Positions 4,437 to 24,980 of a stretch of DNA of 64,000 nt are shown in pieces. Each line of letters begins with the position of its first letter. Positions within the stretch are counted from its first letter, which is position 1. Source of the stretch: Apostichopus japonicus (Eukaryota; Echinodermata; Holothuroidea; Aspidochirotida; Stichopodidae); NCBI RefSeq assembly GCF_037975245.1, contig NC_092582.1:5124001-5188000 (forward strand). Direction: 5' to 3'. Below the pieces are notes generated by a model. It was given only the letters and a program-made list of their open reading frames with translations, was not told the DNA's origin and did no database searches. Both the position numbers and the translations under genes were made by a program.

Positions 4437-4925
4437 CCCCAGGTGATCGGCAAGACACAATCTGATTCCCATTTGCCACCCCCACCCTACCCCCCCCCTT
4501 CCGTCCCCCACGTACTCTCAATGCCAGAACTTTTGTTTTCACAAAAAAATATTACAGCTGCATTTGGGCCACGTTAATTAATATTTCAATAAGGCAATTT
4601 GGCGATAGACAAGAATACAAAAGAAAGACAGAAGCTAGTTGAAACTTCAAACTCTTCCACTCCAAACTGAAAACTATACTTTAAGGGTTTGAAAATAATT
4701 TCTTTCATAGATTTTAATAATAATGATAATAATATTTTCTCTACATCCCAAATTGCAAACTACATCTTAGAGTTAAATATAATTTCTTTCATAACTTTAA
4801 AGAATAACTTTCTCTCCTATTGTCGATACACAGGTTGAAGTACTGAACGGTTTTGGGCCATTTAAATTTGATGAAAAATTGGCTTTGAAGATCCTGTCAA
4901 ATACCGGCGAAAGCCTGCAGACCCA

Positions 4926-4997
4926 TCAAGTTGACTTCTGTAAAGTTTTGCTCCATTCTACTAGTCTCTGGCCAGCTGCATCGATCGTCTCATCCTC
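4926..4997 (-). CDS. KYAT3: KYAT exon 14 and stop
   Basis: Contains 23 codons from EDETIDAAGQRLVEW to KTLQKST followed by TGA, matching the C-terminal 'D.TLDAA..I..W' helix of KYATs. The acceptor is ttgctttta g. The 3' UTR follows to lower coordinates. Confidence 0.93.
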   Translation of the reverse strand, partial: EDETIDAAGQRLVEWSKTLQKST

Positions 4998-7900
4998 CTA
5001 AAAGCAAAATATCAGAAGAAGAAAAAATCAACAAACTATGACTGAGGGTAGTATCAAAATAGACTTATTTGTCAAATTTTTTAAATTTCTTTCATTTCTG
5101 TTAAAAAATTTAAATTTTCGTAATATCGATGTTAGTCATTAGATGTTATATAGTCAAGTATCATATTTCATAATAGGAGAACAAAGAGTTACAATATTGA
5201 TTTAATTAGCCAACTATTATTAACACATGATGAAAAAAAAAACGCCCTTAAGAACCATTTTTGTTTGTTTTGTATCTTCTTATTTTGAGGCATACTTTGC
5301 CTACCCAAATGGAAAACAATGTCTTTAATGATCACCGATATAACTGCAAAAATATGCCAGAAAAAGCAGCAACCACCATCAAAGTTTGGTCAGGGATAAT
5401 TTAAGTTTGTTCTACCTCTCTCAGAGTATGTTTATACTCACTAAGATATTTATTGGTATCGTTTCATTGACTCCAGTATCTCAAAATAACTTTTGGAAAC
5501 ATGTTCTGGAAGGCTGGAGAACTTGAAAAATGCTGTCTAGAAGTTTATACAAAATTACCCTTCATTCAGCCAGCTATTATCAGGAAACAAAAAAGTCAAA
5601 CTAGCAATCTGAAAATGTTGCCAGATTTTCAACCACTGAGATCAAAATAACAATAACATGCTTTTTCTCACCTTGATAAAACAGAAACGTATATATTTCT
5701 CTCCAATATCTTTATGGGCAGGACCAAAGAAAGCACTGCAAGGTATGGTTGCGACCCCCTGAAACAATAAGACAAAGTAACCGACCATTTATGGTTAATT
5801 AGCGACACTAGTCTTTAATAAATTAACTAATTCAGTATATATCTCTATCCAATATCTTTATGGGCAGGACCAAAGAAAGCACTGCAAGGTATGGTTGCGA
5901 CCCCCTGAAACAATAAGACCAATTAACCGACCATTTATGATTAATTAGCGACACTTGTAGACTTTAATAAATTAATTCAATTATGTTAATTGCTTGCTAT
6001 TTATTCGTAAGAGAGGGAGGGAGGGGAGATATTGGTTAGTGTAAAGCAAGGTACCCCCAGCAAAGAATGGCCATATAGGGATAGCAACCAACTGAGGACC
6101 GGATAGCTCAGGTGGTAGAACGCTGGAGTCATATGTCGCTGGTTCGAATCCCATTCTAGAGGTGTCTGGTTCGAATCCCATTCTACAGGTCCCATATGTC
6201 CCTAGAGGACCCATATGTCTATTCTAGAGGACCCATATGTCGCTGGTTCGAATCCCATTCTAGAGGTCTCTGGTTCGAATCCCATTCTAGAGGTCGCTGG
6301 TTCGAATCCCATTCTAGAGGTCACTGGTTCGAATCCCATTCTAGAGGTCTCTGGTTCGAATCCCATTCTAGAGGTCGCTGGTTCGAATCCCTTTCTAGCC
6401 ATAAACGTCTTTGCTCTATTCCATCGCCTAAACTTTCCCCGTCACTCTTCTGTTTTATTAATTTGCTTATATTGTATAAGATTCTCAATGAGCCAGTGAG
6501 GATGTGAAGATATTGTAAGTTTCATAACCATACACTATGTGACCTGTGAAATCTTAGTATTAATGTACCAATACTACATGGATTTTATTGATATGAGTGT
6601 ATGCGTTATAACCATGCAGGGCTCCAAAGATACTCTAATGGTCAAACTTAGGAATACGGGGAAACTAAAAGCGGCAATCATCTAGCTACTGCCGCCACAA
6701 CATTCTGTTATATCCTAAACCTAATACAAACAAAAGTCTTTCGACAAAAGTCAACAATCTTTAAAACGAGCTTTTACCTGAGTCTTCATCAGGTATCTGA
6801 CAAATTTATAATCTCTTGGTCCATCTCCAAATCCACTCAAATCGACATCTATTAATAAAAATTAAAAAATAAAAACAATAAAAACAATAAAAAACATTAC
6901 TTTTAATTTTAACTGCATGAACATGTGATTGACTGACTTCCAAATTGGCTGTTTGATTGCTAACAGTGCAAAAACTTAATCTTAATCTTTAAATATCATA
7001 TAGCGACCAAGACGACTTACTGTAGATGAGACGGCCAATTATAAAGAAGGAGCAAAGGTCACCTTCCAGATTAGCTAACCGCTTTACTGAAGAGTTTTGT
7101 ATAATAAATCAATGGAAAACTGGACAGGAAATTATAGACACAGATTAAAAAGTGCAAAGAAATGTTAGCTTCAGCAGGATATGACAATGCATATGAAAGA
7201 TTATATGATATGCAAAGTACTGTGGAGTCTGACTTGCACCCCTGCCTTACCCCTCCTCATGAAAGAAATAGTTAATATACGCTTCCCCCACCATTTAACT
7301 GGTGTATAGAGCTAGAGCATAGAATTAGAACCCTAAATGTCACTACATTCGAATCCCACTCTACCCAAAAACTTTGTTTACTCTCCCCCCCCCCCACCCC
7401 AGGCTTCATTTTTTCTTATGTGATTCCTCCCAGAGGTCACCGATTGGACAAACTGATCCTGTATCGCCCGAAATTGAAAAATATTCATTCAATAAACCAA
7501 CGGAAGCAAAGCAAATATAATTACAGCTTTTCACAAATTTTTTTAGTTCGATTGACCTTTATCATCGATCCTGGCAAGCATGAAATATCCTCCTTCTGGG
7601 ACCATCGGAGATAAGTTTGCCTCCCTTAGCCACTTCTCCATCTTGGTTCTCTTGGCATCGAGAGCTGACACGGTGGAGTTAAAGAAGCACTCTGGTGTAT
7701 CTCGTCGAGACATCTCCAACTCTAGTCCTCTCGCGACTGCTTCCTGAGATGAAGAGAGAGACAGAGAGAGGATGGCTAGGTTTACAGTACCACGTCCATG
7801 CATATTGACATTTTTTTTTATATGACACCAGACAATTTTTTTTTATTGTCCTTGTTCTAACATTGAATTTTTTTTCTTATTTTTTGGCAAATTTAGGTGC

Positions 7901-10900
7901 AGAATTTGCTTTGTGATGAGTACTTCATGGAATAAAGGTACAAAGTTGTTAAATATTTGTGGGTTGCACAGACATGAATCTTTACATTAAACCATTGCAT
8001 TCAAGGTATACTTGAGTGTTCAGGATGGGGTTTCCCCACTCCCTGCCCCCCCCCCCCCACATACCCACCCCCAAAAATATTTCTGGTAAAATAGCTCAAA
8101 GTTCTGCAAAAAAAAACTGTGTCCAATTTTCAAGCTATCAAGTCCTGTCTTTCTGCTGTTGCTACACACCACTATCATGTGTCACTATCATGTTTCACTA
8201 TCGTGTGTCACTATCGTGTGTCACTATCGTGTGCCACTATCGTGTGTCACTATCGTGTGTCACTATCGTGTGCCACTATCGTGTGTCACTATCGTGTGCC
8301 ACTATCGTGTGCCACTATCGTGTGCCACTATCGTGTGTCACTATCGTGTGTCACTATCGTGTGTCACTATCGTGTGTCACTATCGTGAGTCACTATCGTG
8401 AGTCACTATCGTGTGTCACTATCGTGTGTCACTATCGTGTGTCACTATCGTGTGTCACTATCGTGAGTCACTATCGTGAGTCACTATCGTGAGTCACTAT
8501 CGTGAGTCACTATCGTGAGTCACTATCGTGAGTCACTATCGTGTGTCACTATCGTGTGTCACTATCGTGTGTCACTATCATGTGTCACTATCATGTGTCA
8601 CTATCATGTGTCACTATCATGAGTCACTATCATGTGTCACTATCATGTGTCACTATCATGTGTCACTATCATGTGTCACTATCATGAGTCACTATCATGT
8701 GTCACTATCATGTGTCACTATCATGTGTCACTATCATGTGTCACTTTCATAAACCATTGCACCTTTTCTTCTTTAAATTTTGAACTAATTCGATAGATAA
8801 CCGGCTGACGGTCCATACAGGAAAACACAGATAGAAGTCAAACATCATACTATTGTACCTGAACAAAATTGCATAACTTTTCATCCCTGTATCAAACCAA
8901 ATCTTTATCTATGTCTTTACCACCGGCTGTAATTGCTTTGCAAAAAAGACAATTTCTATTGGATTCGGGCAGTGCAGTGTAATTACATTTAATTAGTCTT
9001 CCCACCGTGGTCTGACCCAAAATCAATTAAATTCCCAGTTTCTCTATCTGCATCATTAAAGGGTGTGAAGACTTGCGCTAAAAGAAATGTCTAATGCCGG
9101 TAATCTGACCTAGTTTCGAATGAGGTGTAACAGAAGTGTTAGACACCACCATCGATCCCAGAAAATACACACACAGCTTGCTACCATCGGTATTAGACAC
9201 TAGTGTACAGTCAGTACATACAGCTGCAGTCAATACCCACAGCACGGTGTATAAACGAAACAGCGATGGAAATCTCAAATCCAGCTAAAGATAACAAGGT
9301 ATCACGTTTCATTACTGTCTGCATTTTGTAGCGACACAAACAAAACGTCACTTGCAAGCAACAGAAAAGTTAACTTTTTCAGATGGCCACACAAGATTTG
9401 GGGCGAGTCTTCAATGCCTTTAACCTGATAAATCCTGGCCAGCGAATAAACCGACTGGCGATTTTTGGAAGCAGTTTTAAGTTAGCTACCTGAAGAGGAG
9501 TAGCACACGTAAAGACACAATTCTGGTGAATGGTCATCATATTCTTAATGAGATGAGGTGGACCAATACTCCAGCCCAACTGTGGAAAGAAAAAAGAATA
9601 AGTTAGAAAGGTCTCTCTCTGTTTGTATGGACACTTACATGGAAACGGACCAATTACTGTATACTAAAGGAGTTTAACCCCTAATTGACCTCTCAAGAGG
9701 TCCTGCCGGGGATAATACAGTAGCTATTATTAAAGCATAGACAACAAGTTCTTTTTTTTTTACCAGTTGCTTCAAATAAGAATATACTCCAGTGAACTGT
9801 TTCTCTTCAACTTCTAAAATCTGTTTCAGATGTTTCGACTCAGACCAGTAAATTGTTCTTTTCTAAATTGTTCGACAATCTGATTATGCAGCACGTTTAT
9901 AAGGGTCCATTATAGCATAGTTTTTGCATATATTAGTTTCACATGCCCTAGGAGTTTCAACTTTCCATCCTCGCAAGATTATATCCCATCACTAGCAAGA
10001 AAAAATAAAACGAGAGGAAACAATACAGCAAGATCGCCCTCTCTGTTGAACAACCACACTCTGGTGAATTTATTATTATAATTTCAAACTGATAATAGTT
10101 AGGACACCTAGACAAAAGCTCTAGTCGCTTCAGAATTATTATTATTATTAAGAGAACATATTTCTATTACTGTATTAAGTGTTCTTAATTGTCTTATAAG
10201 ATAGATGGCAATATTTATATTGATATATTAAAATTGATGGAGTTATGTGTTAAGAAGGTGAAAAATGGGGAAAGGTGAATAAGGCAGATGCGAGTTTTGT
10301 GAATACGAAAAAGAAGGTTCAAAATAAGGGAGTGGCAATGAACGGTATGGAAGAGAACCTATTGGCCACGACAAGATTTTATCGGAACGATATGGAATGC
10401 ATGCATGCTATCAGGGAAAGCAAAGTTTAGGGTAATGTCACATGGTCGACACATTAATGATTAACCAACGAGTAGTAGCTATTGACAAATTAATTTATTG
10501 GCAGGAAATTAATTACCTTCCAACTTTGGAATTTAAACTTTTGTCAGTACTGTACAGATGTCAGAAAACGATACATACATTTGAATAGCTAAGGATCCGA
10601 ATTGTGTAGGATTGCCATGTTACCATTGTAACCAAGCGAAATACATTCAACTTAAAAGTATGATGCCAAAAAGAGTGGTTTTCTTCTTTATATTTCCTTA
10701 TTGAAAGATGTGTCAAAGTAAGTTGGCCTGACGTTTTGATCCTTGCAGGATCTTCTTCAGAGGCTAAATGACAAGTAACAGTAGCAGAAGGGACAAATTC
10801 ACGCACAGAACACAGACAGGTTAATGAGCAGGGTGAACGCAAAGATATCTTTTTTTTTTTCGAAACAATTCTCTAGAAGATATTCAATTGAGTACATCTC

Positions 10901-13768
10901 AAGTTGAGACTATATAGCTTAAAGTTGCCAACCATTGCTCTTTGTGTAAGGCAATAATTAATGTTCCTGTATCATGTTAAGCTGTTAAAACTAAGAAGAA
11001 TTGACAATTGCCTAAGATGGTTCATTTTTAACCACAAATCTGATTGAGTAAAACTCTTAGTTATTTGCTCCCTCTTAATTACGCTAAGAAAATAGCAAGC
11101 GCTTCCCAAAATAAAAGAAATGATGAAAATGAAAGACACCCTCATAAAGTTTGTAACCAAATGAACAAAGTTGGTGATAGTAATCAATAAATATATTTCA
11201 TCCTATAAATTTTGAAAAAAAATTATATATGTTCAGATATAAACGGGTTTGGTCAAACCTGTGGTATTTTCCTTTTTTGTAACAAAGTTTGCTGTTAGAG
11301 CTCTGCTGTTAAAACTCTGAATTTGTCACAATTTGCCATTCAAAATTGGATTAAAAAATCATAAACTAATGTCATTAAAATATCTGTGATATGTTCTATG
11401 TAAAATAAAATACAGAAGCTGAGGGATACAAAAAAAAAAAATGGAAATGAGAGATATGGATGTTAGCAATGAGCAGCAAAAGCAAAATATATAAATTGTT
11501 TGGTTAAAGATAGAAAGAGTAATTAAAGAAGATTGCTTTCTTAACAACATAGCTTGATATAAGCGCATTGTTAAAGTGAGCTGAGGTTTTTTTTCTTGCG
11601 GGGAAGGGATGGGGGTGGTTAGACACATCATTGACACTTAACAGGCAATTCTCTGATAGTTACAGCATCCCTTGTCCAACAAAGTTTGCTCATGGAAAAA
11701 TAAATGTTGATTAAACCCACCCGCCATCCCGTGGCACAAAATATCTTCCCTGCGCTGTATGTTGTGATGGTCCGCTCCCACATGTCTGGGAAACAGCTTG
11801 CTGCCGAGAAATTAGTGGTTGAAAAATAGACGGAATATGGCACAGGTACATATTAGCAAATGGCATTAAAGTGAACAGAATTAATAGCACTTATTTGGGG
11901 CATAACTTAACTGTTTTATTCTTAAAGTGACATAATTCAGCTGCTTGTGTTAAGTTGATGAATTACACTAAGATACAAACCGGAGAGAAGAATTCCACTA
12001 CAAAATGTTCCCTATGCCAATAAATAAAGCAAATTCTACCCTTTGCAAGACCACAGTTACCACATAGTACTATAACTGTGCATCAAAGTATGAGAGGCAA
12101 AAGAATGGCCACACTTTAAAAGAATTATTAATTATTAATTAATTGAAAGTGATTAAATGAAGTTTACTACATCCATAAAAAAAATAAAAAAATGTTATTC
12201 ATAGAGATTACATTTCCTTGTTGTGTGATTTTGTAATTAAAACAAACAAGTCTTTCATACAGTGTAAGCTCATCAGTATTGTAGTTTGATACCATCAATA
12301 TTGCCAATTTTCCTTTCTATCAACATTATCCATCGCCATCCCAGTCAATGCTCTCTTAATTGCGTGTTGACAAGATGATTTCCCCATAATGTCAGTCTTT
12401 CTATATAAAACAGCAATTTTAAACTAGTCACTCTACATACCAAACAATGTGTTGCAACCAAGCACCAATTTCAGAACATCAAAGTTTGATATCTCGCAGT
12501 CTTATCTACAGAATGTTACATCTCGTTAATTTCCTGGAAAAAAGATGCAATCTACCACCAGAGGATAGAGACGAGAAAGGAATTTCTAGAGCTAAGCTTT
12601 ATAAAACGCAGAGAAGCCAGCAGAAGTCATGGCGCTTCAATTGAACTGATGGCATGTTTAAAGAAAGTTGAGTATGGGGTAAAGGTTGGCGGCTACGATG
12701 GCATAAACAACAGGAGGTAAAAGTTTGATATTAAGAAGTTGTAAGTTATAGAGAATTAAAACCTGATTAGAATAAAAAATTGCCTGTCATCAATAGTCCT
12801 TTCACAGTCCAAGAAAAACTTTGGTAAAAGAACCGATGACTTGCATGCATGTCGTTCATTCGTGAATGCATGTGATATGTATGTATATTAGATCCTCCTA
12901 CAAGCAGGAACTTGTGAAGAAGCCTCAATGGCTTATCAAAGCCGCAAGCTGACCGAAGTCAGTCTCTTACATTCATATCCAAAAGGGTGTGGAAAGGGGA
13001 TGGGGAGGAAGTTGGGGGGGGGAAGAAAGTGGGGTTGGAGGAAGGCGAGTGGAGGAGGTGAGTAGCAGAAGATATGCCTACTTTCGCTTTCTTTACATTT
13101 GTATTTTGTTTGTATTTTTTTTACTTTTGGAAAATTTAGAAAAATCAAGGACTTGTCAATGCTTCCTTTCTCAGTTTATGATTTTGAGCGTTTCCATGAT
13201 GATTTTCTGAATGACCAACATGCAACCACTATCCCGGTCGACTTTTACTGTTTAGTAGGTTTTTTTAAATTTTTTTAGCCCCTGAAGAAGACCCTGCTAG
13301 GATCGAAACGTCAGGCCAACTTACTTTTACACATTCTCCTTCACAGGCTCTCTAGTGGATAAGCAGTTTGCTTACAGTTTCATTTTTATTTCAGAAGGAA
13401 GAGAGTATGGAAGAGAGCGTAAGAAGAGCAAAGCTGGTCAGTTGATTCAATTATTTAAACCACAGAAACCCATGTTATTTTTCTACAGACCTTCCATCCT
13501 GTAGCACTGAAAATTTTTCCAGCGCTAAAGATTGATATGGTCCTTTCCAACATATCGGGGAGATTTGCTACATGAGAGAACAAAAGTGCAAATAGAGAAT
13601 GGAAAGAAACCCATATTAGACTCGTTTGCTGAAAAACAGTACCTGTTAGAAAAATCTGCATATTGAATTTGACACTGCTTCTATTGCTTTCGGACCACCT
13701 GTGACCAACTTAAAGTCCTGCAGAAATTCTACCAGACGGTTAAACATTTGCGTCTAGTTTAGTTTTAG

Positions 13769-13845
<77 letters not shown>

Positions 13846-16800
13846 CCTGGTCTCTACCGTATTAATAATTGGTCAGTGGTTGTCACAACTCCTTCTGGGA
13901 TAACCCCCTCAAGTATTTTATTGATTACTTTACGTGTTTAGTTAATTGGATGCTAATTATTTAGCCATGGTTTTGTGCATCCTTAAGCATTACGTAATCA
14001 TTTTTTTGTTAACCAGTATCGGAATTCCATTGGCATGGGGTATAAATAGAACAGTAAAGCCACGTGCTCTCTCTTTTCAATCTCGGTCTTGAACCGAAAA
14101 CAAAACCGTAAGTTGGTCTTGTTTAATTATTAAATGTCAGAATTTTAGTTCAAAAGAAACCAATTTCCACCTTCACTGAAATAACATGGACTCATTACTT
14201 TACAAATTAAATTCGGTGTTTTTGGTACTTTTATAGATGGCAAAAGAGGCAGGGAAAAGGCTAAATTAAAGCTTCAACGAGGAAAGAAAGAGAACGTGAA
14301 ACTAAGAAAAGGATGACGCTCATATAGAAAGAAAGAACATTCATTTGAATTAACCATAAACGTTGACAGAACCCTCAACGAAACAAAACTAGGACCATAA
14401 GAAGGAAAGGATGCCATATGAAGCATAGAAGTTTAAAAGGATATATATAGAAAATGATGCCTTTTTTTTTTGTTCTATGTAACCGCCATTAATTTTATTG
14501 CTGTTGTTAATAATTATATTGAACCTTTGAAACTCATATACTCTCTCTGTCCGTATTTACGCCGTTGTCGACTGCTCTCTTGAAAAGAATCCGTGACAGT
14601 GGTTAATTACCATCACATGTTATTACAATAAATCCATTTGTCTTTTTCTTGCTGAGTAATGCAATATGATCAAATACAACAAACAATGAAAGGCCTAATG
14701 ATCTTCTCCCACCTTGTAAAACACTCAAATTTGCAACAAATTTTTGAAGGATCACTTTACCCATTCTCAGGTGTTTATTGCCATCGTACACCATGTGTTC
14801 ATAAACCTCATCACTGATACAGAGGATGTCGTATTTCTTGCATAAATCTGCAACGGTTTCTAACTCCTCGTATGTAAACACCTACAGAGTGAAGTTTAAA
14901 GAAAATGAGTCACTTGCATACTACATGATCTTTTTGAGGTTGTGGGATTACAGGGGAAAGAATCAGCATATCCTCTGAGATGATATCTTACAGGTAAACT
15001 GGATTTTGCTGATTAAATTAATTTCATATAAGTGATGTCGGATAAGTCATGGATCAGACAACCAAATTTACTTTTCCTGACAGACATAGAAGAAAGTTGC
15101 CTTGCAGTGGACAAGAAGAGTTCTTTAAACTGACAAATTGAGACACCAGCCCAACAAAGAACTGTCCCATTTAGTAAATGATACTGTATACTACCAGAGC
15201 TGAAGTGATTCTGTTCTCAAATTCTTATTCAAGCAGATCTACCTATATCCACACTCTTCCATGATGATTTGTATACATGCATGCTCCTGCTCAGGATATT
15301 TGCACTAGTGGTATAGGAATCAGTCGATGACAGATTCTTACTCACGCTTTCATAGAGCCTTGCACTCGTTGTTGTACTCAAACCATAGGGCAATTCTACT
15401 TGCAATCATAATCATGCTGTTGTACTCATACTCATAATGTTGTACTCATGCTCAGGCTGTTGTACTAATGCTCATGATGTTGTAATCATACTCATGTTGT
15501 ACTCATGCTCATAATGTTGTATTCATGCTCTAATGTTGTACTAATGCTCATGTTGTACTCTTGTACTCAAAATTCAAACTTCAGTTGTATAAATTCCCAA
15601 CAATTTATGTTACACAATAGCCGTAAATGTTTATATCTGAAAACAAACTAACCTTTCCGAGTGGATTATTCGGTGAGTTCACAACAATCGCTTTTGTCTT
15701 TTCCGTAAAGGCAGCTTCCAGTTCGGCCTTGTCAAGTTTCCAGTCAGCAGTCGATTCAACGTCATCTCTGGCCTGCAAGACAAAGAAATTTCTTTTTTGG
15801 AGGAGAACTTCAAGAATAACGAATAAATTCTGTGTTCTGTTTGCAGGCATTTTAATATCATTCCAAGAATTAATTTGTTGGCTTTAAGAATTACTGATCT
15901 GGCAGAGGTGTCCATGTGTGCTTGGGAGGGGGCAAGGGGGGGGGGGTGAAGGTGGAGGATACTCACTGGTCTTAGAGGTACATGTCTTGGTTTTCCTCCA
16001 GCCATGAGAACCACCGGTTCATAAGAGTCAAATGAAGGCTCAATGATAATGACCTGGAAAAGAAAGCAAGAAAATATTAAATGATTAATATGAGAAAAGA
16101 TACATGTTTACAGTTTCAAGATTTCAACGACTCATATTAATTTCTTCATTAATGAACTCAACATATAAAAACTGCAAGAAGCCTTGATGGAGGAAAGTGA
16201 ACGATGAATTAACTGCACAAAACACCAACTTAAAGTTGCCTGATTTATCGCCAGGAATGACATCACCTCCTCTCAATGCAAATTTACTAGTAACCTATAT
16301 AAAATTAAAATAAAACTTTTAGCAAACTGCTTATCCACTAGAGAGCCTGTGTAAAAGAATGTGTAAAGGTAAGTTGGCCTGACGTTTCGATCCTACAGTA
16401 GCAGGATCTTCTTCAAAGGCTAAATGACAAGAAACAGTAACAGAAGGGACAAAAACATGCACAGAATACAGACAGGTTAATGAGCAGGGTAAACACAAAG
16501 AGATAGATGTAAGGGGATTAGAAGACAAGGGATGGAGAGAAGGAAGAAAGAAAGCAACAGGGGAAGAGGAGAAGGAGATAAACAGTGGAGGGACAAAGAG
16601 AGGATTAAGGGAAGGGGGTAGGGAATAAACTGGAGAAGACCAAAGACTTTGTCTTTGTGTTTACCATGCTCATTAACCTGTCTGTATTCTGTGTGTGTTT
16701 TTATCCCTTCTGTTACTGTTACTTGTCATTTAGCCTTTGAAGAAGATCCTGCTAGGATTGAAACGTCAGGCTAACTTACTTTTACACATTCAAGTTACCT

Positions 16801-19800
16801 ACATACACGTCTTCCAGTATTAACATTGACTCACAAGATAAAGTAACTAGCAACCTATCTCTTCTCCAGCAACTTGGGCCGGCTCAACCAGGTCAACTTA
16901 TCATTTACCTAGTACCTCATATCCAGGGTTAACGTGGACGGACAAGGTGAACTATCTACCAGTCCAAGTTCAACATGGCACTTAATATTACTTTACTTGA
17001 TCTCTGGGATAAACACAGACATAAAGGAAAGACTTCCAAGTTACCAACCCTATATCCAGGATTAACATGGAATTAACATGGGAATCACAAGGTAAACTCA
17101 CAACTGACCAACCTCACCTTGAGAATAAACATGGGATTTGTTAGTTATCTCCCTTATCTCCAGGATTAACATAGCTCATGCAGTCACCTGAATAGTTACC
17201 TACCTCATCTCCAGGATGAACATGTGCTTGCAAGGTAACCTTACTAGTCACCTAGCTTATTGCCAAGATAAATATATTCTTTGAAGGTAACCTATAGTTA
17301 CCTACATCATCTCCAGGATGAACATATGCTTGCAAGGTAACCTTACTAGTCACCAAGCATATTGCCAAGATTAACATATACATATATGCTTGTAAGGTAA
17401 CACAAAATACCTACATCATCTCCAGAATTAACATATGCTAGCAAGGTAACCTTACTAGTCACCAAGCTTATTGCTAAGATTAACAAATATATATATGCTT
17501 GTAAGGCAACCTTAATAATTACCTACCTTATCTCCAGGATTAACATATGCTTGCAAGGTAACCTTACTAGTTACCTTGCAAGGTTACCTTGCAAGGTTAC
17601 CTTGCAAGGTAACCTACCTATTTTATTGCAAAGATTAACATATATATATGTTTGTAAGGTAACCAATAGTTACCTACCTCATCTCTCAGTTTACCATGCT
17701 TGCAAGTTAACCTTACTAGTCACCAAGCTTATTGCCAAGATTAACAAATATATATATGCCTGTAATGTAAGCAACTTTACGTACCTCATCTCCAGGATGA
17801 ACATATGCCTGCCAGGTAACCAACTAGTCACCTAGCTTATTGCCAAGATTAACATATATATATATGTTTGTAGGGTAACCAATAGTTACCTACCTCATCA
17901 CCAGGATTAACATATGCTTGCCAGGTAACCTTACTAGTCACCAAGCGTATTGCCAAGATTAACATATATATACATGCTTGTAAGGTAACCTTTATAATTA
18001 CCTACTGTACCTCATCTCCAGGATGAACATATGCTTGCATGGTAACCTTAGTAGTTACCTATCTTATTGCTAAGATTAACATATATATATGCTTGTAAGG
18101 TAACCTTAATAGCTACCTACCTCATCACCAGGATTAACATGGCTCATAAGTGCATAGTACAGAGATCCATATGCGCCTACTGATACCAATACTTCAGTCA
18201 TGGGATCAATCTTACGATTGAAGTATTCCCCGTACATTTCAGAGACAATCTTCACCAGTCTTGGATGTCCCTGGTGAAAAAGAAACCAGAGAAAATGAAA
18301 TTGATAAAATATCTAAAAAATATCTATAACATACCGTATATCATATAACTATTACAAATATCTATAAAGTGCTATAAGGGAGTGTTAATTAGCTCAGTGG
18401 TTCAAGGAGTGTTAGCTCAGTGGTTAACACTGGTGCCTTCCAATCATAAGGTCCCTGGTTCGAGTCACTCCAAGATTAATGTATGTCGTCCAGTACTTAC
18501 AGAATTGTTGACAATTCATAATCATGGACTTTAAATATGAATCTAAGAGACTGACTTCAGTCAGCTTGAAGCTTTGATATAAGCCAATTAGGCTTCTTCG
18601 CGAGTTCCTGCTTGCAGGAGGATCTTAAATACATACATACATATATACAGTACATACTGTACAACACTGGGGGGGGGAGGGGGAAGTAACTGTACCTTAG
18701 GGGAGTTTGTATAGTGGCCTAGGGCCTAACTCGTGATAGGTCATTCAAGAGAAAAGATGGAAAAATTGTTGTGGCTCAGAGATTGAGTATAAAATTTCTG
18801 TTTGGCCTGCAAGAGCCATTTAATGGGTGCATCCCTGAACAAGTAAGTATAGCATATTATTATGATACTAAAAATGCAAGGTATGTTGTATATAAATCAG
18901 AAATTAGCCTCATATTTTAAATCACAATTTAATTTTTACCCCTGCTCGTGTATACTGGTTCATCAGTGGTCCACTGTTAGTGGTGGCTTCTACCAAGTCG
19001 GTTACAATGTTGTCAGGTGGTGCAAAATTGGGGAAACCCTGCAAAAAAAAAATATCAATTTGTTTGTTTTGATATAGAAACTGAAAAAATTTGCACCAAA
19101 AAAAACAACATATGTTGACTTCTCTTCTCTATGTTCACACGATGATAAAATTTAAGGCAAATACAAGGCTTTTTCAAAGTATAACGTACATCAAATTAGT
19201 TATGCTAATTCATGCAAAAGAATCAAAGAACAGAGTAAAATATTTAACACACTGAACAGTGAAAAGTTCAACAAACTCCAGCCTTTTTGAAACCACATGA
19301 GTCTAGTTTGACTCCACCAGCCCTACAAACTAAGGTAGGTAAAAGTTAATTATATGACAAGGAACGTTACTGAAGTGGAATTTTTTAATTGTAGGTACTC
19401 AACCATCATTTACTCAACCATCTCATGTACAAGGTATTGTAATTAAAACTGATTGTTCTAGCATGACAATTGAAATTTTTTAAAGAAATGGCAAAACAGC
19501 TATAGCAAGTCTTTTATTCCATTATTTTATTTATTTTGTTTGGTATTTTATTTAATGTATGACCATCATAATTTAATCAAGCTGAATATTTATAAGCTGA
19601 AAAAAAAAGTAAAAACTTCATATATTTCTTAGCTTTATAGTTACTTTATCAACTTACTTGTCCCAAGTTGATCGACTTTGTCTCGTTGGCCAAGGCAATA
19701 AATTCAACCCTATTTGCATAAAGAAAACATGTGAAATACTGTGTCAATGTCATTCCATCCATCCATCTATCCATTCATTTATATATTTCTTTGTTTCTGT

Positions 19801-22800
19801 ATGCACATTTTCGTTCTGAAAATTTGCTACAATTCTCTGGTAATGTAAGGTTTCTGGTGTGCAACTGAAGATACTATGGCTCCCTGGAATTTGGGATGTT
19901 TACTGGCTCAATGCCTTGTGAATTAAGCCGTTTGCCAGAAGAGAGAAAAAAGGCACTTGGGTATTTCTGCCAGTAAACATTAAGAACATACTTGGCATGA
20001 TTTCGGCCTTTTTGAAACATTTATGCTCTGTAATCACAACTTATTTTAACAGCAAATATTATTAGGCTGCTTTCATAGGCATTGGGCTAGCTGTTCTCAT
20101 TATTGAGATTATTATCATTAAGCAGTGATTCTTTCTTTCTTGCTTGTTTTTCTATGTTCTTTTCTCTTTTCTTCTTTCCTCTTACTTATCCTTTGTATTC
20201 TTCCGTTTATTGTCTTTGTAAAAGGGGGACTGCTCGTAAAAGCTCTGCTTCTTCAGTCCTCCTCCACCTCCTTATATATTAACTATTCACTATTGTATTT
20301 ATATTATGTGGAAATCAATCAAACTCATAGGCATTGGGCTGCTCGCATAGGCATTGGGCTGCTCTCATAGGCATTGGCTGCTCTCATAGGCATTGGGCTG
20401 CTCTCATAGGCAATGGGCTGCTCTCATAGGCGTTGGGCTGCTCTCATGGGCCTAAATAGCACCTGATGTGTGTTGTAAATAAGGAGAACTTGAGTTTAGC
20501 TGGTAGATGTTTGCATTTTTTAGCAAGTGGCTCAAAAAAGGGTTGGGTGGTGAGGAATACTTTGATTGAATATTCAGTCTAAGAGGCTTAGATTTGAATA
20601 ACCATTAAGCTTACCAGACACTGCCAGGTTGCCCAGACAAACGATCGGCCGCTTTTAGTGAAGTCATTTTCTTCTATGAACGAGAAAGCAGACAAATAAA
20701 ATGTAAGTATTTCAAAGATAAAACTGCCAAATGCCCAACAGAAGCTGAACGGTATGTTGAGCCACAATTGAAATGGTCGACAATGGTGCATATCGTGCAC
20801 ACATTTAAACCAAGGCTGGTGTGCGCAACAACTTTGATGTGGAAATTTTCTCCATGGTTGATAATAACAACTTGGTATCATGTAGCCAATGTGATGCTTA
20901 AAATGGAAGTCATTTATTATGCACATTTACATCTCATTTGCATAAAATTACAACCCATCTTTTCTTCTTTTAATTTGCTGCTCATTACTACAAATACATT
21001 TGAGCCTAATAATAGTCCTGCTTAGCATTCATTGACTCTCGTCGCTTTTCTCCTGGGATTAGTGGCTTGCATATTTATCTTACAATGTTTTCAATTTTAA
21101 TTTCAATTCAACTTAAAATTATATCAGCCAACAATGTTCCAAGAATTTACAGTACGTGACACGTTCATACACATAAAACTTAAGACTTCAAACATGATAA
21201 ATGGTTGAGGGATCACACAATATCATTTAATATGCTAAGCAGATGTATGGCTATAATTGAGATAATAATGAACATAAAATGTTAGGCAATTGATAATGAA
21301 AAGTCAAATAGTATGATTTGGATGGATCTTGTGTGGGGTATACTGTAGCATGAATATAGCCATTGTATATGATCTTCATATGCAGTAACAAACTGTACAC
21401 TGTTTCATATGGGTGTGATAATATATATATGCTATGAAATTGATAGTCATTGAAAAGAATTCAACGATAACATTTATTATGTGTAACAGTGTTTAGGGGT
21501 TTGAATTTTGTTGTTTGGTATCAAATACTAAAGATATTAAAATTCTGTTTAAAACAAAATTGATGCTATACATTTTTGCATAATTATAAAGCAGTGAAAT
21601 GCTATGGCCTTAAATCATTTGAAGTACTGTAACCATTTACTATAAGCCCAAGATGCACCTGCATATGAACAAACTACCTTTTCCTATCAGCCCCTCCCCC
21701 CCCCCCCACCCCTTACAAAACAAAGGCCTCCTCCTGGATATAACCAAAAATAGAGAGACTGATTTAGTAGAGAGAGTCTATTATACTAACATCAACAACT
21801 ACATCAGTACACAGCATCATACGTTATCTTTAAACCAGCATCTGTAATCGCCATGATGGTTACAAGTATCACAAAACATGAGGCCCAGAATTTTTTTTTT
21901 TCCTGCCTTAATGTTTAATTTTAGCAAAACTTCAAGATGACGTATTAAAGATGTGTAGAAGCAAAATAAAACAAAATGATCCTCCACTTGTTGCTGACAA
22001 TATTGAAGTAATTTTCGAGAAGTGGTTGGGATTTATCTCTACACTGAAATGATTCCTCACCACAAAAAATTAAAAAATACAGCGTGAGACAAGTTGCAGG
22101 TGGTAAAAATGAACGGAATATTGATAACTAGCTGCATAACCAACCAACCATTCATTTGCACTGATATTATAAATTAATAGTCTATGTGATTTTGCTAGAT
22201 AAAATTTAAATCTGATGGTAGTAAACACCGTGGAGTGAATACTTAATTCACTGTTCATGTCGTGAAGGCGAGTTTAAGAATTTATATTAGGAGGCAATGA
22301 AAACACTTAGGATTTTGTGTGCAAAACTACGATAAGGTAATATGTAACCCCTTGCCAGAGAAAAGTTTGGTCTTGTATCTGAGAAGTACCAATTTGTTCC
22401 ACCCATCTTTCATATTGTGAAGAACTGAAAACTCTTTGTGTTTTAAAAGCAGCCTTTGAATGGTTTTGAATGTTTTTCTTACTCAAAAGTCTGCATACTC
22501 AGTTGGTGATGCAGACTTAATTTATCAGCAAATAACAATAACAGCTACAGAAAATGGTACAAATTTAAGGTTAGACACGACTGTTTATATCTGCTGTGAA
22601 AGTGTTGAAGGAATGCTCAAATTTAGATATTATCATTTTAAAAGGTTTCGTTTCTTATTGTTCAAAACTTTAAGCAACTGCTGCAATAAGCTAGAAATAT
22701 ATTTATTCGCACATGTATTTGCATGGCAGGATATGTTACAAGGCAAACCCAACTGAATAGATATTTGACCTTCTCTGTGGGGACTTCGGACATGTTATTT

Positions 22801-23385
22801 CACCCATGGACTTCACTACATATTTATTAAATTAACCACAACACAGTTTTATTGAATTAAACTATAATATTTACTCTAGATAGCCTAATTATTTATACAA
22901 TAACATATACATAGCTTTTTAAAATATTGTCACAAATGGCACCGTACAATGTACAATGATTAATGGTTACCGTACAATAGAATTAGATGCAAACACCATG
23001 ACAAATTACAACATGAACTTTTGTACTAAGTACTCTCTTTGTTTCTATACATGATGGCAATCTTCCCATTGAGTATGCACTGTATCTTTCTGATAGTACC
23101 GTTTAATTCAGAACTTATTTAAGTTACTGTATCTATTGGATGTCAAATTATTTGTTTAATATTATTGCAGGGTGGAATCTATTTGTACAGTACAGGAAGC
23201 TGAGACTATGGGAATTTTTTGTGACGTGAGTAACAAAAAGGTGATGCTATTGTAGTAGAAACTGAGCTGAGACTACTCACACTTGTAGAAGACAAATATC
23301 TGAGCAAATATGGAGATGTTGGCTTGAAGAAATGACTGACACGACTCGACTTTGCCAATCTAAAAGCATGTGTAAACAGTGGCAT
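4926..23385 (-). CDS. KYAT3: Kynurenine aminotransferase / cysteine-S-conjugate beta-lyase, KYAT3-like, 14 coding exons plus one duplicated exon
   Basis: PLP-dependent class I/II aminotransferase that converts kynurenine to kynurenic acid and can cleave cysteine S-conjugates. Coding exons read on the minus strand: 23385-23281 (presequence), 20673-20615, 19709-19658, 19038-18940, 18270-18121, 16053-15967, 15772-15653, 14881-14761, 13567-13491 (9A) or 11800-11721 (9B), 9579-9490, 7743-7557, 6848-6778, 5758-5672, 4997-4926. All junctions are GT/AG and the phases agree. The product is 421 residues from the internal ATG at 20667, or 458 with the presequence, close to the human KYAT1 and KYAT3 lengths as I recall them. 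Visible motifs are NLGQGFP, NNPLGK, SDEVY, SAGK with the Schiff-base lysine, TGW and YIRFCF. KYAT3-like traits are CATPLQEA, PECFFNS and the presequence; KYAT1 is the alternative name. The exon model is my reading and has no transcript support. Confidence 0.93.
5672..5758 (-). CDS. KYAT3: KYAT exon 13
   Basis: Contains 29 codons from GVATIPCSAFFGP to YIRFCFIK. The Arg of YIRFCF (about residue 393) is the family carboxylate-binding arginine. The acceptor is attgtttcag and the donor gtgagaaa. A tandem copy of its first two thirds lies upstream at 5904-5846 with a stop codon. Confidence 0.93.
5835..5980 (-). pseudogene. Tandem duplicate of KYAT exon 13 with premature stop (decoy exon)
   Basis: A 146-bp tandem duplication: the block at about 5688-5834 recurs here nearly unchanged. 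It includes the intact acceptor attgtttcag and the first 19 codons of exon 13 (GVATIPCSAFFGPAHKDIG), then TAG where exon 13 continues with Glu-Lys. The exon donor is not included. In transcription order this copy comes first, so its acceptor competes directly with that of the true exon 13. Use of it would truncate the enzyme before the substrate-binding arginine. Confidence 0.85.
6100..6400 (+). repeat. tRNA-derived SINE with amplified B-box array (27-bp period)
   Basis: An A-box-like TAGCTCAGGTGGTAGA at 6103-6118 is followed by eight copies of the Pol III B-box word GGTTCGAATCC (starts 6141, 6168, 6245, 6272, 6299, 6326, 6353; the eighth at 6380). The last six are spaced exactly 27 bp. The tail 'tctagccataaacgtctttgctc' resembles that of a single-copy relative at 7311-7390. 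It lies in the KYAT intron between exons 12 and 13. Confidence 0.8.
6778..6848 (-). CDS. KYAT3: KYAT exon 12
   Basis: Encodes D-VDLSGFGDGPRDYKF and VRYLMKTQ. DYKFV matches the family 'YDYKFVKWM'. The acceptor ttattaatag is pyrimidine-poor and the donor is gtaaaagc; it ends in phase 0. Confidence 0.9.
7305..7400 (+). repeat. Degenerate relative of the B-box SINE
   Basis: Contains 'agagctagagcatagaattagaa', then a single ATTCGAATCCCACTCTA and a tail 'cccaaaaactttgtttactc' like the SINE at 6.1-6.4 kb, ending in a C-run. Confidence 0.5.
7557..7743 (-). CDS. KYAT3: KYAT exon 11
   Basis: Contains 62 codons plus one base from EAVARGLELEMSRRD to MLARIDDK, including PECFFNS and PEGGYFML (family 'P.GGYF'). 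The acceptor is tctcatctcag and the donor gtcaatcg (weak). It ends in phase 1. Confidence 0.93.
8170..8747. repeat. 13-bp minisatellite in KYAT intron 10
   Basis: About 44 head-to-tail copies of TCACTATCGTGTG. Copies before about 8196 and after about 8577 carry CATG in place of CGTG, while the middle carries CGTG, with GTGTG/GTGAG/GTGCC variants in blocks. As 13 is not a multiple of three, all forward frames stay open and give spurious proteins. Confidence 0.97.
9056..9422. mobile_element. TTAA-flanked MITE, copy B (367 bp)
   Basis: The left end TTAAAGGG.TGAAGACTTGC and the right end GCGAGTCTTCA..GCCTTTAA are inverted. Both ends have TTAA, as expected of piggyBac-type insertion. It shares ends and internal blocks ('gccggtaatctgacctagtt', 'gtctgcattttgtagcgaca') with the copy at 24981-25215. 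Confidence 0.75.
9490..9579 (-). CDS. KYAT3: KYAT exon 10
   Basis: Contains 30 codons from LGWSIGPPHLIKNMM to FTCATPLQ. GWSIGP follows TGWK/TGWR of either exon 9. CATPLQ is shared with vertebrate KYAT3 rather than KYAT1. The acceptor is tttccacag and the donor gtagctaa. A TTAA-flanked MITE ends 67 bases past the donor. Confidence 0.94.
10680..10850 (-). repeat. Dispersed 'AAACGTCAGGCCAAC' repeat, copy 1
   Basis: On the minus strand it carries 'cctctgaagaagatcctgc', then 'aaaacgtcaggccaactta'. It belongs to the family also at 13280, 16322 and 16655. Such 3' ends are common in Penelope-like or related retroelements of marine animals; this family assignment is tentative. Confidence 0.6.
10851..11720. 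other. KYAT intron sequence
   Basis: Part of the intron between exons 9B and 10. AT-rich, with no exon, RNA or recognised repeat. Confidence 0.5.
11721..11800 (-). CDS. KYAT3: KYAT exon 9B: catalytic-lysine exon, copy B
   Basis: 80 bases encode, with the split codon, A-SCFPDMWERTITTYSAGK and then IFCATGWR. It is one codon longer than 9A, retains the family MWERT motif and the Schiff-base lysine, but has Cys for Ser and Arg for Lys in the following motif. The acceptor is ctcggcag and the donor gtgggttt. It lies 1.69 kb downstream of 9A in the same orientation. Intact frame, intact splice sites and amino-acid-level conservation despite base divergence argue against a dead copy. Confidence 0.85.
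12840..12985 (-). repeat. SINE copy 2 (body and tail, minus strand)
   Basis: The reverse complement matches the body of the SINE at 18378-18650: blocks 'gactgacttcagtcagcttg', 'ggcttcttc', 'ttcctgcttgcaggaggat' and a TACATACA-type tail. The tRNA-like head is missing or replaced by a G-rich stretch at 12986-13060. Confidence 0.75.
13280..13375 (+). repeat. Dispersed 'AAACGTCAGGCCAAC' repeat, copy 2
   Basis: Contains 'cctgaagaagaccctgctag', then 'gatcgaaacgtcaggccaac', then 'acattctccttcacaggctc'. It is the same family as the copies at 10680, 16322 and 16655 and lies between exons 9A and 9B. Confidence 0.65.
13491..13567 (-). CDS. KYAT3: KYAT exon 9A: catalytic-lysine exon, copy A
   Basis: 77 bases encode, with the split codon, A-NLPDMLERTISIFSAGK and then IFSATGWK. 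Lys in SAGK (about residue 245; human Lys247) forms the Schiff base with PLP. The acceptor is ctcatgtag and the donor gtctgtag. It is closer to vertebrate KYATs around the lysine (IFSATGWK against TFSATGWK) but has Leu instead of Trp in the 'MWERT' motif. It enters in phase 1 and leaves in phase 0, exactly like exon 9B, so either can be used but not both in frame. Confidence 0.85.
13770..13841. repeat. (TA)n microsatellite
   Basis: About 35 uninterrupted TA units in the intron between exons 8 and 9A. Confidence 0.97.
14761..14881 (-). CDS. KYAT3: KYAT exon 8
   Basis: Contains 40 codons plus one base, from VFTYEELETVADLC to GNKHLRM. SDEVY carries the Asp that binds the pyridine nitrogen and the Tyr that binds PLP (about residues 211 and 214; human 213 and 216). 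It ends in phase 1 at the donor gtaaagtg, so exon 9A or 9B must supply two bases of an Ala codon. Confidence 0.94.
15365..15570. repeat. Degenerate tandem repeat, 'tgttgtactcatgctca'
   Basis: Roughly nine imperfect copies of a unit of about 17-24 bp built on TTGTACTCATGCTCA, in the intron between exons 7 and 8. Confidence 0.8.
15653..15772 (-). CDS. KYAT3: KYAT exon 7
   Basis: Contains 40 codons from ARDDVESTADWKLD to NSPNNPLGK. The second Asn of NNPLGK (about residue 183 of the 421-residue form) corresponds to the PLP O3'-binding Asn185 of human KYAT1. The donor gttagttt is weaker than its neighbours. Confidence 0.94.
15967..16053 (-). CDS. KYAT3: KYAT exon 6
   Basis: Contains 29 codons beginning VIIIEPSFDSYEPVV and ending HVPLRP, matching the 'VIIIEPFFDCYEPM..MAGG' block of vertebrate KYATs. 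The acceptor is ttttccag and the donor gtgagtat; both ends are phase 0. Confidence 0.93.
16322..16505 (-). repeat. Dispersed 'AAACGTCAGGCCAAC' repeat, copy 3 (left arm of inverted pair)
   Basis: Reverse complement of the unit at 16655-16795, sharing 'aacctgtctgtattctgtg', 'cccttctgttactgttt' and 'gaagaagatcctgct'. A purine-rich spacer of about 150 bases separates the arms. Confidence 0.75.
16655..16795 (+). repeat. Dispersed 'AAACGTCAGGCCAAC' repeat, copy 4 (right arm of inverted pair)
   Basis: Plus-strand copy ending 'gaaacgtcaggctaacttac' and 'ttttacacattc', in head-to-head arrangement with the copy at 16322-16505. Confidence 0.75.
16796..18120. repeat. Minisatellite built from KYAT exon 5 end and donor site
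   Basis: About 13 copies of 'ctcatctccaggattaacat' (starts near 17150, 17203, 17308, 17412, 17530, 17677, 17791, 17891, 18011 and more diverged copies down to 16800), alternating in most of the array with a sister half-unit 'cttattgccaagattaacat'. The dimer period is about 110 bp. On the minus strand the first word is the end of exon 5 (ATGTTAATCCTGGTGATGAG) followed by the donor gtaggtaac. The half-units are joined by 'gcttgcaaggtaacctta'. A palindromic run of alternating ttgcaaggtaacc/ggttaccttgcaa lies at about 17555-17610. Confidence 0.9.
18121..18270 (-). CDS. KYAT3: KYAT exon 5
   Basis: Contains 50 codons beginning GHPRLVKIVSEMYGEYF, with the VSVGAYGSLYYA motif (family 'VTVGAYGSLF', contacting the cofactor phosphate) and ending NPGDE. 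The donor is gtaggtagct. The last 20 or so exonic bases plus this donor are the apparent seed of the minisatellite that fills the next 1.3 kb of intron. Confidence 0.93.
18378..18650 (+). repeat. tRNA-derived SINE with duplicated A box
   Basis: The A-box-like TTAGCTCAGTGGTT occurs twice (near 18388 and 18411), then a B-box-like GGTTCGAGTC near 18456, then a body ('gactgacttcagtcagcttg', 'ttcctgcttgcaggaggatc') and a TACATACATACATA tail. The T-arm does not pair, so it is not a functional tRNA. A second copy lies at 12840-12985. Confidence 0.75.
18940..19038 (-). CDS. KYAT3: KYAT exon 4
   Basis: Contains 33 codons beginning GFPNFAPPDNIV and ending MNQYTRAG. It completes the QGFP motif and carries the NQYT motif of the family. 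The acceptor is a T-run followed by gcag and the donor is gtaaaaatt; both ends are phase 0. Confidence 0.92.
19658..19709 (-). CDS. KYAT3: KYAT exon 3
   Basis: Encodes W/VEFIALANETKSINLGQ and ends in phase 0 at the donor gtaagt. NLGQ begins the NLGQGFP signature of the kynurenine aminotransferase N-terminal segment, which lines the active-site entrance. The acceptor is tttatgcaaatag. Confidence 0.9.
20320..20455. repeat. 20-bp tandem repeat, 'ctgctctcataggcattggg'
   Basis: Six copies with single-base variation in the KYAT intron just downstream of exon 2. One lone copy ('gctgctttcataggcattgg') sits about 250 bases earlier near 20068. Confidence 0.9.
20615..20673 (-). CDS. KYAT3: KYAT exon 2: N-terminal helix and cytosolic start
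   Basis: The acceptor follows a strong pyrimidine tract (tttgtctgctttctcgttcatag). The exon reads KK, then M at 20667, then TSLKAADRLSGQPGSVW, with the Trp codon split across the donor gtaagctt. This matches the family pattern 'AKR..GL..NVW' that precedes VEF in exon 3. Translation from the internal ATG gives a 421-residue form without a targeting sequence. The exon lies inside a longer spurious reading frame in another phase. Confidence 0.85.
20930..23280. other. KYAT intron between presequence exon and exon 2
   Basis: AT-rich, with short C-runs near 21695. No convincing exon, RNA gene or transposon end. Open frames here are short and lack family resemblance. Confidence 0.5.
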
Positions 23386-23422
23386 TCCAAATGTAACAGC
23401 AACGTTAGGAAGGGAAAGCGGC
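23281..23422 (-). CDS. KYAT3: KYAT exon 1: mitochondrial presequence exon
   Basis: The acceptor at 23423-23424 follows a pyrimidine tract (tctctctttcacag). The first ATG of the exon is at 23385 and the strong donor gtgagtag begins at 23280. The 35 codons contain several Arg/Lys and Ser but no Asp or Glu, and end in RYLSSTS, which is typical of a mitochondrial matrix presequence. The exon ends in phase 0 and joins exon 2 in frame through two extra lysine codons (KK) ahead of that exon's own ATG. Human KYAT3 likewise has a presequence ending in a similar Ser/Thr stretch. Whether the exon is constitutive or alternative cannot be seen from DNA. The acceptor implies a further upstream 5' UTR exon. 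Confidence 0.7.
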
Positions 23423-24980
23423 CTGTGAAAGAGAGAATGGACCATGAATTGATGAGTAGTGGCAATGTCTGGAAAAGCAAGTGATCTCCACTTAAAATAC
23501 AAACTTCACACATTGCCCATCCTTCCAGCAATTACCTCACAAAATTTTCATAATTGCTGCAAATTTTAAATGAGAAAGTTACAAGCTCCCCAAGGAAAAA
23601 AATGTGTACAGTAACAAGAAAGCCTACATATATATTAGCAGCAAAGTGGCAAGAGATTTCCCCCAAATGTACATTCAGCTTGCCTATAGATTAATTTCAA
23701 TGAGACAGTTCTTCAGGTGAAGGTTTGGGTTTGTTACTGCTGTATCGTGTTGTCGTGTTACGTACATAAGAGTTTGTTATTGGATTAGGGCAGATCTACA
23801 TGACTACAGAGGTGCCCAGCTAATTTTAGTTTAGGACTAGATTTTTTGCTATGCAATTCTTTTTTAGAAGAGAAAATATGCAGAATGGCCTAGATTTATA
23901 GAAGTAGACTTTCAGATACTGTACATCTCAGATGCCGCATCCCATGAGCACTGTTGGTACACACCCTCCGGTATCACACAGGTCTCTTTTAACTCCTCAA
24001 TTCTGTAGGACCTGACACACACACACATACTGTATACACATACAAATATACACACTTGTGCATGCACATATCACTCGGTGGAAAATAGTGAAATTATGAA
24101 GTATATATCATGAGGTTGAAGTTTGTATACAACTTGCATGATTGATAGTATAGAGAATGTGCATCTTTCGCCTGTTACGTTATTGTTTTGGCAACTTTTA
24201 TAACAAAGCGGTTTTACAAAACAATATGGTTGTCTAATTAGATCTACATGATCAGCAGTTGACCTCAGCACATAGATTGTGGTATTACGTGCATTGTATG
24301 AGCCAAATTTAAAATCATGTCTCACATTTTAACATCTCATTTATTTTACAGAGCATTTCATAGAAACTTGTTTTTTCCACACATATATGTACTTGAAAAA
24401 ATTATTGCTTCCAAAATATGCTAGCAAGGCAAATTATGGTAACTCACATTCAAACTTCATCAAGCATGTTTCTGCCAACCTCAAAGAAGTTTTCACTAAC
24501 TGAGTCATATATGACATACTGTACAAGTCTACTTTAAGATTTCTCAATATCTGGGACAGACAGAACCTATGGCTAGATTTTATACTCAAGCCTTATGGTA
24601 AGACAATAAGGTATTATAAAGAAGATATCACTCCATCGATCTTTGTGCTAGGGATTATAGAAAACCGATGATGCACCAACACAAGCTGAAGGATACAGTA
24701 GGACTAAATAGCAAAGCTAAACCAGACAGTATGTCTTCTTAAAGAACAAATATTTCTCACATCTTGAAATGATAACATTAAACATTAAGTCATCTATACT
24801 CAGTGCACATCTGCTGATTTGCACTAACACTTTCACACAAGCGTTTGATATTGAATATTGGGAGCTGTACATAACAACTGTTGCTCATGAGCATGCTATA
24901 CATGTATGCAAAGTTAGGATGGTATGTTACAAAAACACATACTGTATCCATAACATAACTTACTAACTTGTGAATATCAT

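Follow-up and report, generated by a model that had tools for sequence, protein, structure and literature searches.

The window analyzed here, a stretch of 64,000 nucleotides from Apostichopus japonicus, carries on its minus strand, from 23385 to 4926, a complete gene of 14 exons, in the spliced model of which all boundaries are AG/GT (Table 1). The spliced open frame is 458 amino acids long with one version of exon 9 (9A) and 459 with the other (9B). Judged by its sequence, the gene is a kynurenine aminotransferase (KAT) of the KYAT1/KYAT3 type, a member of the class I/II aminotransferases. The Pfam model PF00155 (Aminotran_1_2) covered most of the protein, at 2.2e-54 (185.4 bits) for the 9A form and 5.1e-56 (190.8 bits) for the 9B form, and the solved relatives included 1yiy (E 9e-144), the KYAT3 entries 2zjg/5veq (1e-135), and the KYAT1 entry 4wp0 (7e-125), which we take to be mosquito, mouse, and human entries, respectively. 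Identity over the alignment was 52% to the mosquito row and 51% to the mouse row, and the top 7 of the 60 solved matches listed were all named kynurenine aminotransferase or kynurenine-oxoglutarate transaminase 1 or 3. Against NCBIfam, the 9B form matched general aminotransferase models, all 25 of those shown (of 76) lying below their cut-offs. Kynurenine transamination and beta-lyase activity of the encoded protein are putative, assigned by family membership. A search of positions 4500 to 24500 of the window against Rfam at gathering thresholds gave no match.

Table 1. Features of the KYAT-type gene, in positions of the window
Feature	Position	Strand	Remark
Exon 1	23281..23385	-	from first ATG used; encodes basic, Ser/Arg-rich N-terminus
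Exon 2	20615..20673	-	internal ATG, Met38, just ahead of conserved domain
Exon 3	19658..19709	-	spliced model
Exon 4	18940..19038	-	spliced model
Exon 5	18121..18270	-	spliced model
Exon 6	15967..16053	-	spliced model
Exon 7	15653..15772	-	spliced model
Exon 8	14761..14881	-	ends in phase 1
Exon 9A	13491..13567	-	ANLPDMLERTISIFSAGKIFSATGWK; first Ala codon split with exon 8
Exon 9B	11721..11800	-	ASCFPDMWERTITTYSAGKIFCATGWR; first Ala codon split with exon 8
Exon 10	9490..9579	-	starts in phase 0
Exon 11	7557..7743	-	spliced model
Exon 12	6778..6848	-	spliced model
Exon 13	5672..5758	-	ends RFCFIK; Arg there aligns with human KAT I Arg398
Exon 14	4926..4997	-	includes stop codon
Repeat arm	13274..13334	.	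intron 9A-9B; pairs with 10708-10768
Repeat arm	10708..10768	.	intron 9B-10; 92% complementary to 13274-13334

The number of loci was estimated by a six-frame search of the 671.6-Mb assembly with the 9B form as the query, in which the best candidates were scored. Fifteen of the 16 matches lay within the locus and a single weak one elsewhere (C3, E 0.08); no other KYAT locus was found among these candidates, and within the limits of this search the gene appears to be single-copy. The 15 matches corresponded to exons 1, 2, and 4 to 14, with both 9A and 9B, plus a second, partial exon 13; no separate match was obtained for exon 3 (52 nt).

Several further features of the gene were noted. By eye, the N-terminus encoded by exon 1 resembles a mitochondrial targeting sequence, and since exon 2 has an ATG of its own, Met38 is a candidate cytosolic start, with which the gene could give a mitochondrial as well as a cytosolic form. 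The exon 13 acceptor and the first part of that exon are duplicated in tandem on the minus strand (5975-5835 and 5826-5689), the copies being 93.6% identical over 141 alignment columns with one gap. In the upstream copy an AG acceptor is present, the exon part begins at 5904, and an in-frame TAG follows after 19 codons (5847-5845, by hand count; the TAG was seen in the assembly search as well), so that use of this copy would truncate the protein ahead of the RFCF segment. Intron 5 (17200-18100, minus strand) holds many degenerate tandem copies resembling the exon 5 end and donor (catatgttaatcctggagatgaggtaggtaact..., by eye), which are possible decoy donors, and the intron between exons 10 and 11 contains a long tandem array with a unit of about 13 bases (tgatagtgacaca..., window positions 8180-8750, by eye).

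The gene has two versions of exon 9. Exons 9A (77 nt, 13567-13491) and 9B (80 nt, 11800-11721), whose coordinates the earlier note had given exactly, each encode the segment with the catalytic SAGK lysine. Both contain the Schiff-base lysine of SAGK and the TGW(K/R) motif, with the peptides near the lysine correctly quoted in that note as IFSATGWK and IFCATGWR, and each matches the same segment of the solved KATs. They found each other reciprocally by tblastn within the window at an E value of about 3e-9. No third copy of the exon was detected by tblastn in the window, where further matches had E values of 0.5 or above, or among the best candidates scored in the assembly. The splice sites are intact in both, the acceptor and donor being ...ctcatgtag|C and AAG|gtctgt for 9A and ...ctcggcag|C and CGG|gtgggt for 9B. 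Open frames, splice sites, and matches to solved KATs agree in this respect, and they bear out the earlier description of a KYAT-type gene with two intact lysine-segment exons.

Both exon lengths leave a remainder of 2 modulo 3, and both copies are entered after exon 8 in phase 1 and left in phase 0, as the note had stated. Inclusion of 9A and 9B together, or of neither, shifts the frame, and the first stops then lie 395 and 403 nt ahead of the final exon junction. The frame consequently forces exclusive use, which had been proposed on the same grounds, and double inclusion or skipping is predicted to yield a non-productive transcript.

With the extra codon of 9B removed, the two exons agree at 54 of 78 bases, and their peptides at 18 of 26 residues. 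Such a likeness is not attributable to chance, given the shared residues, the tblastn value, the correspondence of both copies to the same KAT segment, and the concentration of the divergence at silent sites. By the Nei-Gojobori method, 15.5 of 17.1 silent sites differed (pS 0.91), compared with 8.5 of 60.9 replacement sites (pN 0.14), and the Fisher P for silent versus replacement change was 3e-8 or 6e-10, depending on which of two roundings of the counts was used. Silent sites are therefore saturated and replacement sites conserved, so that the dN/dS-type comparison suggested in the earlier note came out with replacement change far below silent change. The excess of differences at third positions taken alone was modest (13 of 24, P 0.028; 14 of 24 when the gap was put in its alternative place).

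We then simulated the history of the pair with one copy neutral and the other frozen in its protein sequence, starting from a common ancestor and running until the observed number of third-position differences was reached, a stopping rule that is lenient to the null since silent sites are saturated. Over 18 settings, which combined three values of kappa with three positions of the extra codon and two sequences to start from (8000 runs each), the probability of an open frame with no more than 8 differences was 0.0003 to 0.014, and it fell to 0.0001 to 0.005 when the splice AG and GT had to survive as well. A first simulation of 20,000 runs from each of 9A and 9B had given P values of 0.0095 and 0.0087. 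The pattern is that of purifying selection acting on 9A and 9B alike for the greater part of their history, as far as the two sequences record it; a copy that had died only very recently would give the same pattern. The duplication itself looks old, as no similarity remains within 400 nt of either copy: when these flanks were compared, the sole match below an E value of 1 lay inside the exon (68 nt, 72%, E 4e-6). The same 400-nt flanks gave no sign of shared selector elements.

We also considered that the pair could be an artefact of the assembly, in which two alleles were placed in tandem. The 93.6% identical duplicate of exon 13 does show that recent duplications, local or introduced by the assembly, occur in this gene, although nothing of the kind points to the exon 9 pair, where 24 of 78 bases differ and the flanks within 400 nt are unrelated, a distance far beyond allelic difference. 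We regard such an artefact as having next to no chance of being the explanation. Frame incompatibility, the saturation of silent sites with conserved replacement sites, and the simulated probabilities together make it very probable that 9A and 9B are real, frame-enforced mutually exclusive exons.

Splice site strength was scored with a matrix built from the gene's own 12 constitutive introns, a small set whose scores are weak evidence. The donor of 9B ranked at the 97th percentile of all GT in the gene and that of 9A, middling, at the 87th; the acceptor of 9A ranked at the 95th percentile of all AG, and that of 9B at the 60th, the lowest of 14 acceptors. Exon 8 had the lowest-scoring donor among the 12 constitutive donors scored. 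These weak scores hint that 9B may need help for its inclusion. The low rank of the 9B acceptor would also suit a gene in which a single copy works and the other is a relic, recently silenced or barely used and still intact because its death is recent, and so would the residues that both copies carry but that are absent from 79 prokaryotic relatives (among the best 80 of 575, described below). Such a relic is nevertheless improbable, since the silent sites are saturated with the protein conserved, neutrality of either copy is rejected over most of its history, and the two open frames are undamaged, as are all four splice dinucleotides.

The stops of the frame-shifted products, 395 and 403 nt ahead of the last junction, are at a position expected to trigger nonsense-mediated decay, and the pair could be mainly a means of dose control, in which transcripts with double inclusion or skipping are degraded and both forms of the protein are equal in function. 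A dose switch, however, needs no second copy constrained in its protein, and 8 of 26 residues around the lysine have diverged while under constraint; we give this explanation slightly less credit than the relic.

The mutually exclusive use of two working exons calls for a mechanism of choice. The introns around the copies measure 1193, 1690 (between 9A and 9B), and 2141 nt, and all are GT-AG. Steric exclusion and mixed U2/U12 introns were rejected, as the intron between the copies is 1690 nt long and all donors are GT and all acceptors AG. With introns too long for steric exclusion and uniformly GT-AG, the most likely scheme would be a regulated choice of one exon, with nonsense-mediated decay clearing the wrong products.

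We also considered RNA pairing between intronic repeats. The 61-nt inverted pair listed in Table 1 brackets 9B, with a duplex energy of -99 kcal/mol, and could loop 9B out, in which case its role might be that of a modulator. Stronger competing duplexes are formed by 10708-10845 with 16652-16789 in intron 5 (-201 kcal/mol, bracketing exons 6 to 9B), by 13298-13391 with 16302-16395 (-143 kcal/mol, bracketing exons 6 to 9A), and by two arms inside intron 5 (-171 kcal/mol). Copies of a dispersed repeat occur in both orientations in intron 5, in the intron separating 9A from 9B, and in that separating 9B from exon 10 (16302-16506, 16647-16791, 13274-13391, and 10708-10845), and the assembly holds at least 43 rows of this repeat, a number that includes the query and some short partials, with 40 of 790 first-look candidates scored. 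Since the arms belong to an assembly-wide dispersed repeat, the insertions look unspecific and are probably later than the exon pair. RNA looping is for these reasons unlikely as the ancestral mechanism, and the arms may modulate splicing today.

The two copies differ at 8 of 26 residues, from K-16 (in the 9A count) to K+8 relative to the lysine, and 9B has one extra residue. The exchanges, given as 9A/9B, are Lys/Arg at K+8, Ser/Cys at K+3, Phe/Tyr at K-4, Ile/Thr at K-5, and Ser/Thr at K-6, followed in the printed alignment by Leu/Trp at K-11, Leu/Phe at K-15, and Asn/Ser at K-16. We assume that K+8 and K-3 are binders of the PLP phosphate. The lysine aligns with Lys247 of human KAT I, and exon 9 covers about residues 230 to 255 of that enzyme. 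Lys247 binds PLP (PMC4926479), and a docking paper lists Gly253 and Lys255 of KAT I among the site contacts (PMC11582277). Lys255 is K+8, inside exon 9, where 9A has Lys and 9B has Arg.

For comparison we used prokaryotic relatives, the best 80 of 575 that had been confirmed. The motif could be read in 79 of them, all but L040. Five of these motifs lay in stretches that have an in-frame stop at another place, and they were retained; the motif finder required the Lys and TGW, and the constancy of those among the 79 carries no meaning. At K-4, these relatives had Ser (42), Gly (29), Asn (6), or Gln (2) and an aromatic residue in 0 of 79; the solved animal KATs among the matches listed have Gly there, and the Phe of 9A and the Tyr of 9B lie outside the prokaryotic range. 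Cys at K+3, as in 9B, likewise occurred in 0 of the 79. Within the same set, Gly or Ala at K-1 was paired with Lys at K+8 in 68 of 79 and Ser with Arg in 11 of 79, without exception, so that the combination of 9B, Gly at K-1 with Arg at K+8, was seen in none. Yeast Bna3 may have the same two residues together, and the break in 9B is perhaps not unique.

Both copies have in common an aromatic residue at K-4, Ile at K+1, and PDM in place of PGM. These shared features suggest a common origin of the two in a single exon that, within this lineage, had already been altered; among them just the aromatic K-4 is unusual, as Ile at K+1 (11 of 79) and Asp at K-13 (3 of 79) do occur in the best 80 of 575 prokaryotic relatives. 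The unseen residues (aromatic K-4 in both copies and Cys at K+3 in 9B) could also mean relaxed constraint. Against the solved KATs, the 9A segment scored 77.3 bits and the 9B segment 73.5 bits, an order that is reversed for PF00155, where the 9B form scores higher, so that the two comparisons disagree on which copy is closer to the canonical enzyme.

Taken together, the reading that we favor, with a probability of roughly 0.8, is that in one KYAT1/KYAT3-type gene the exon bearing the Schiff-base lysine and, at K+8, a basic residue was duplicated in tandem long ago; both copies would be expressed, exclusively of each other, and would tune the same chemistry. The tuning of PLP and substrate handling would then act through K+8, K+3, K-4, K-5, K-11, and the one extra residue of 9B, within the same basic chemistry and without a switch of reaction.

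The substrate contacts of human KAT I named in the accessible part of PMC4926479 are Trp18, Tyr63, Tyr101, Phe125, Asn185, Phe278, His279, and Arg398. As the named residues other than Lys247 fall outside exon 9, these contacts would be common to both isoforms, and the suggestion of the earlier note that the two enzymes might divide transamination and beta-elimination between them finds no sequence support here. The docking contact Lys255, unlike those contacts, falls within exon 9 (PMC11582277). It is rather unlikely that the exchange of the exon with the Schiff-base lysine and K+8 produces two PLP enzymes with different catalytic preferences chosen by tissue or state, for example kynurenine/glutamine transamination versus lysis of cysteine conjugates, or use of different keto acids.

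Mutually exclusive exon pairs are known from genes such as those of muscle myosin heavy chain and PKM. The pair described here resembles them in its tandem homologous exons, matching phase, and non-productive double use and differs in the enzyme family and in the location at the PLP lysine. The enzyme shares its catalytic motif with KYAT1/KYAT3 (glutamine transaminase K/cysteine-conjugate beta-lyase), whose solved animal members among those listed, five in each of two alignments, have GSAGKTF and TGWK, compared with (F/Y)SAGKIF in 9A and 9B. The nearest known analogue of the pair is the exon switch of COQ-2. According to PMC7434440, exons 6a and 6e of coq-2 in nematodes, other helminths, annelids, and molluscs are mutually exclusive and switch synthesis between ubiquinone and rhodoquinone. 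There, too, a single gene for a metabolic enzyme has a pair of homologous exons used one at a time, and their exchange, which includes two invariant residue swaps, reshapes the protein core close to the active site. The enzyme and cofactor are different, the COQ-2 exons are of equal length whereas those of the KYAT pair have 77 and 80 nt, and the effect in COQ-2 was shown there by exon removal and RNA-seq, whereas expression of both KYAT exons is predicted from sequence. Unlike in COQ-2, the swapped segment of the KYAT pair includes the covalent catalytic residue itself.

No report of such a KYAT exon pair was found in the open-access literature by title or the start of the abstract. No open-access paper had both 'kynurenine aminotransferase' and 'mutually exclusive exons', and a search joining mutually exclusive exons, aminotransferase, and pyridoxal gave nothing on such a pair by title or abstract start. 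By term search, the main text of the Holothuria glaberrima genome preprint (PMC13228809) contains none of 'kynurenine', 'aminotransferase', and 'alternative splicing'. The assertion that no such exclusive pair was previously known in this family is thus uncontradicted by the open-access literature, which is weak evidence. The kind of arrangement is already known: in COQ-2, too, homologous exons used one at a time remodel a metabolic enzyme at its core.

It is likely that one gene here encodes two expressed versions of the enzyme. If both forms are made, the pair would be a natural paired experiment on the surroundings of the PLP lysine, with the other 13 exons constant, and would stand beside COQ-2 as an example of a metabolic enzyme whose core is rewired by splicing. 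The pathway of kynurenine and kynurenic acid is tied to nervous and immune signaling, and with the gene apparently single-copy, paralogues cannot do the job. Should a switch of catalytic preference be true after all, this would perhaps be the first exchange by splicing of the segment with the covalent catalytic residue in an aminotransferase.
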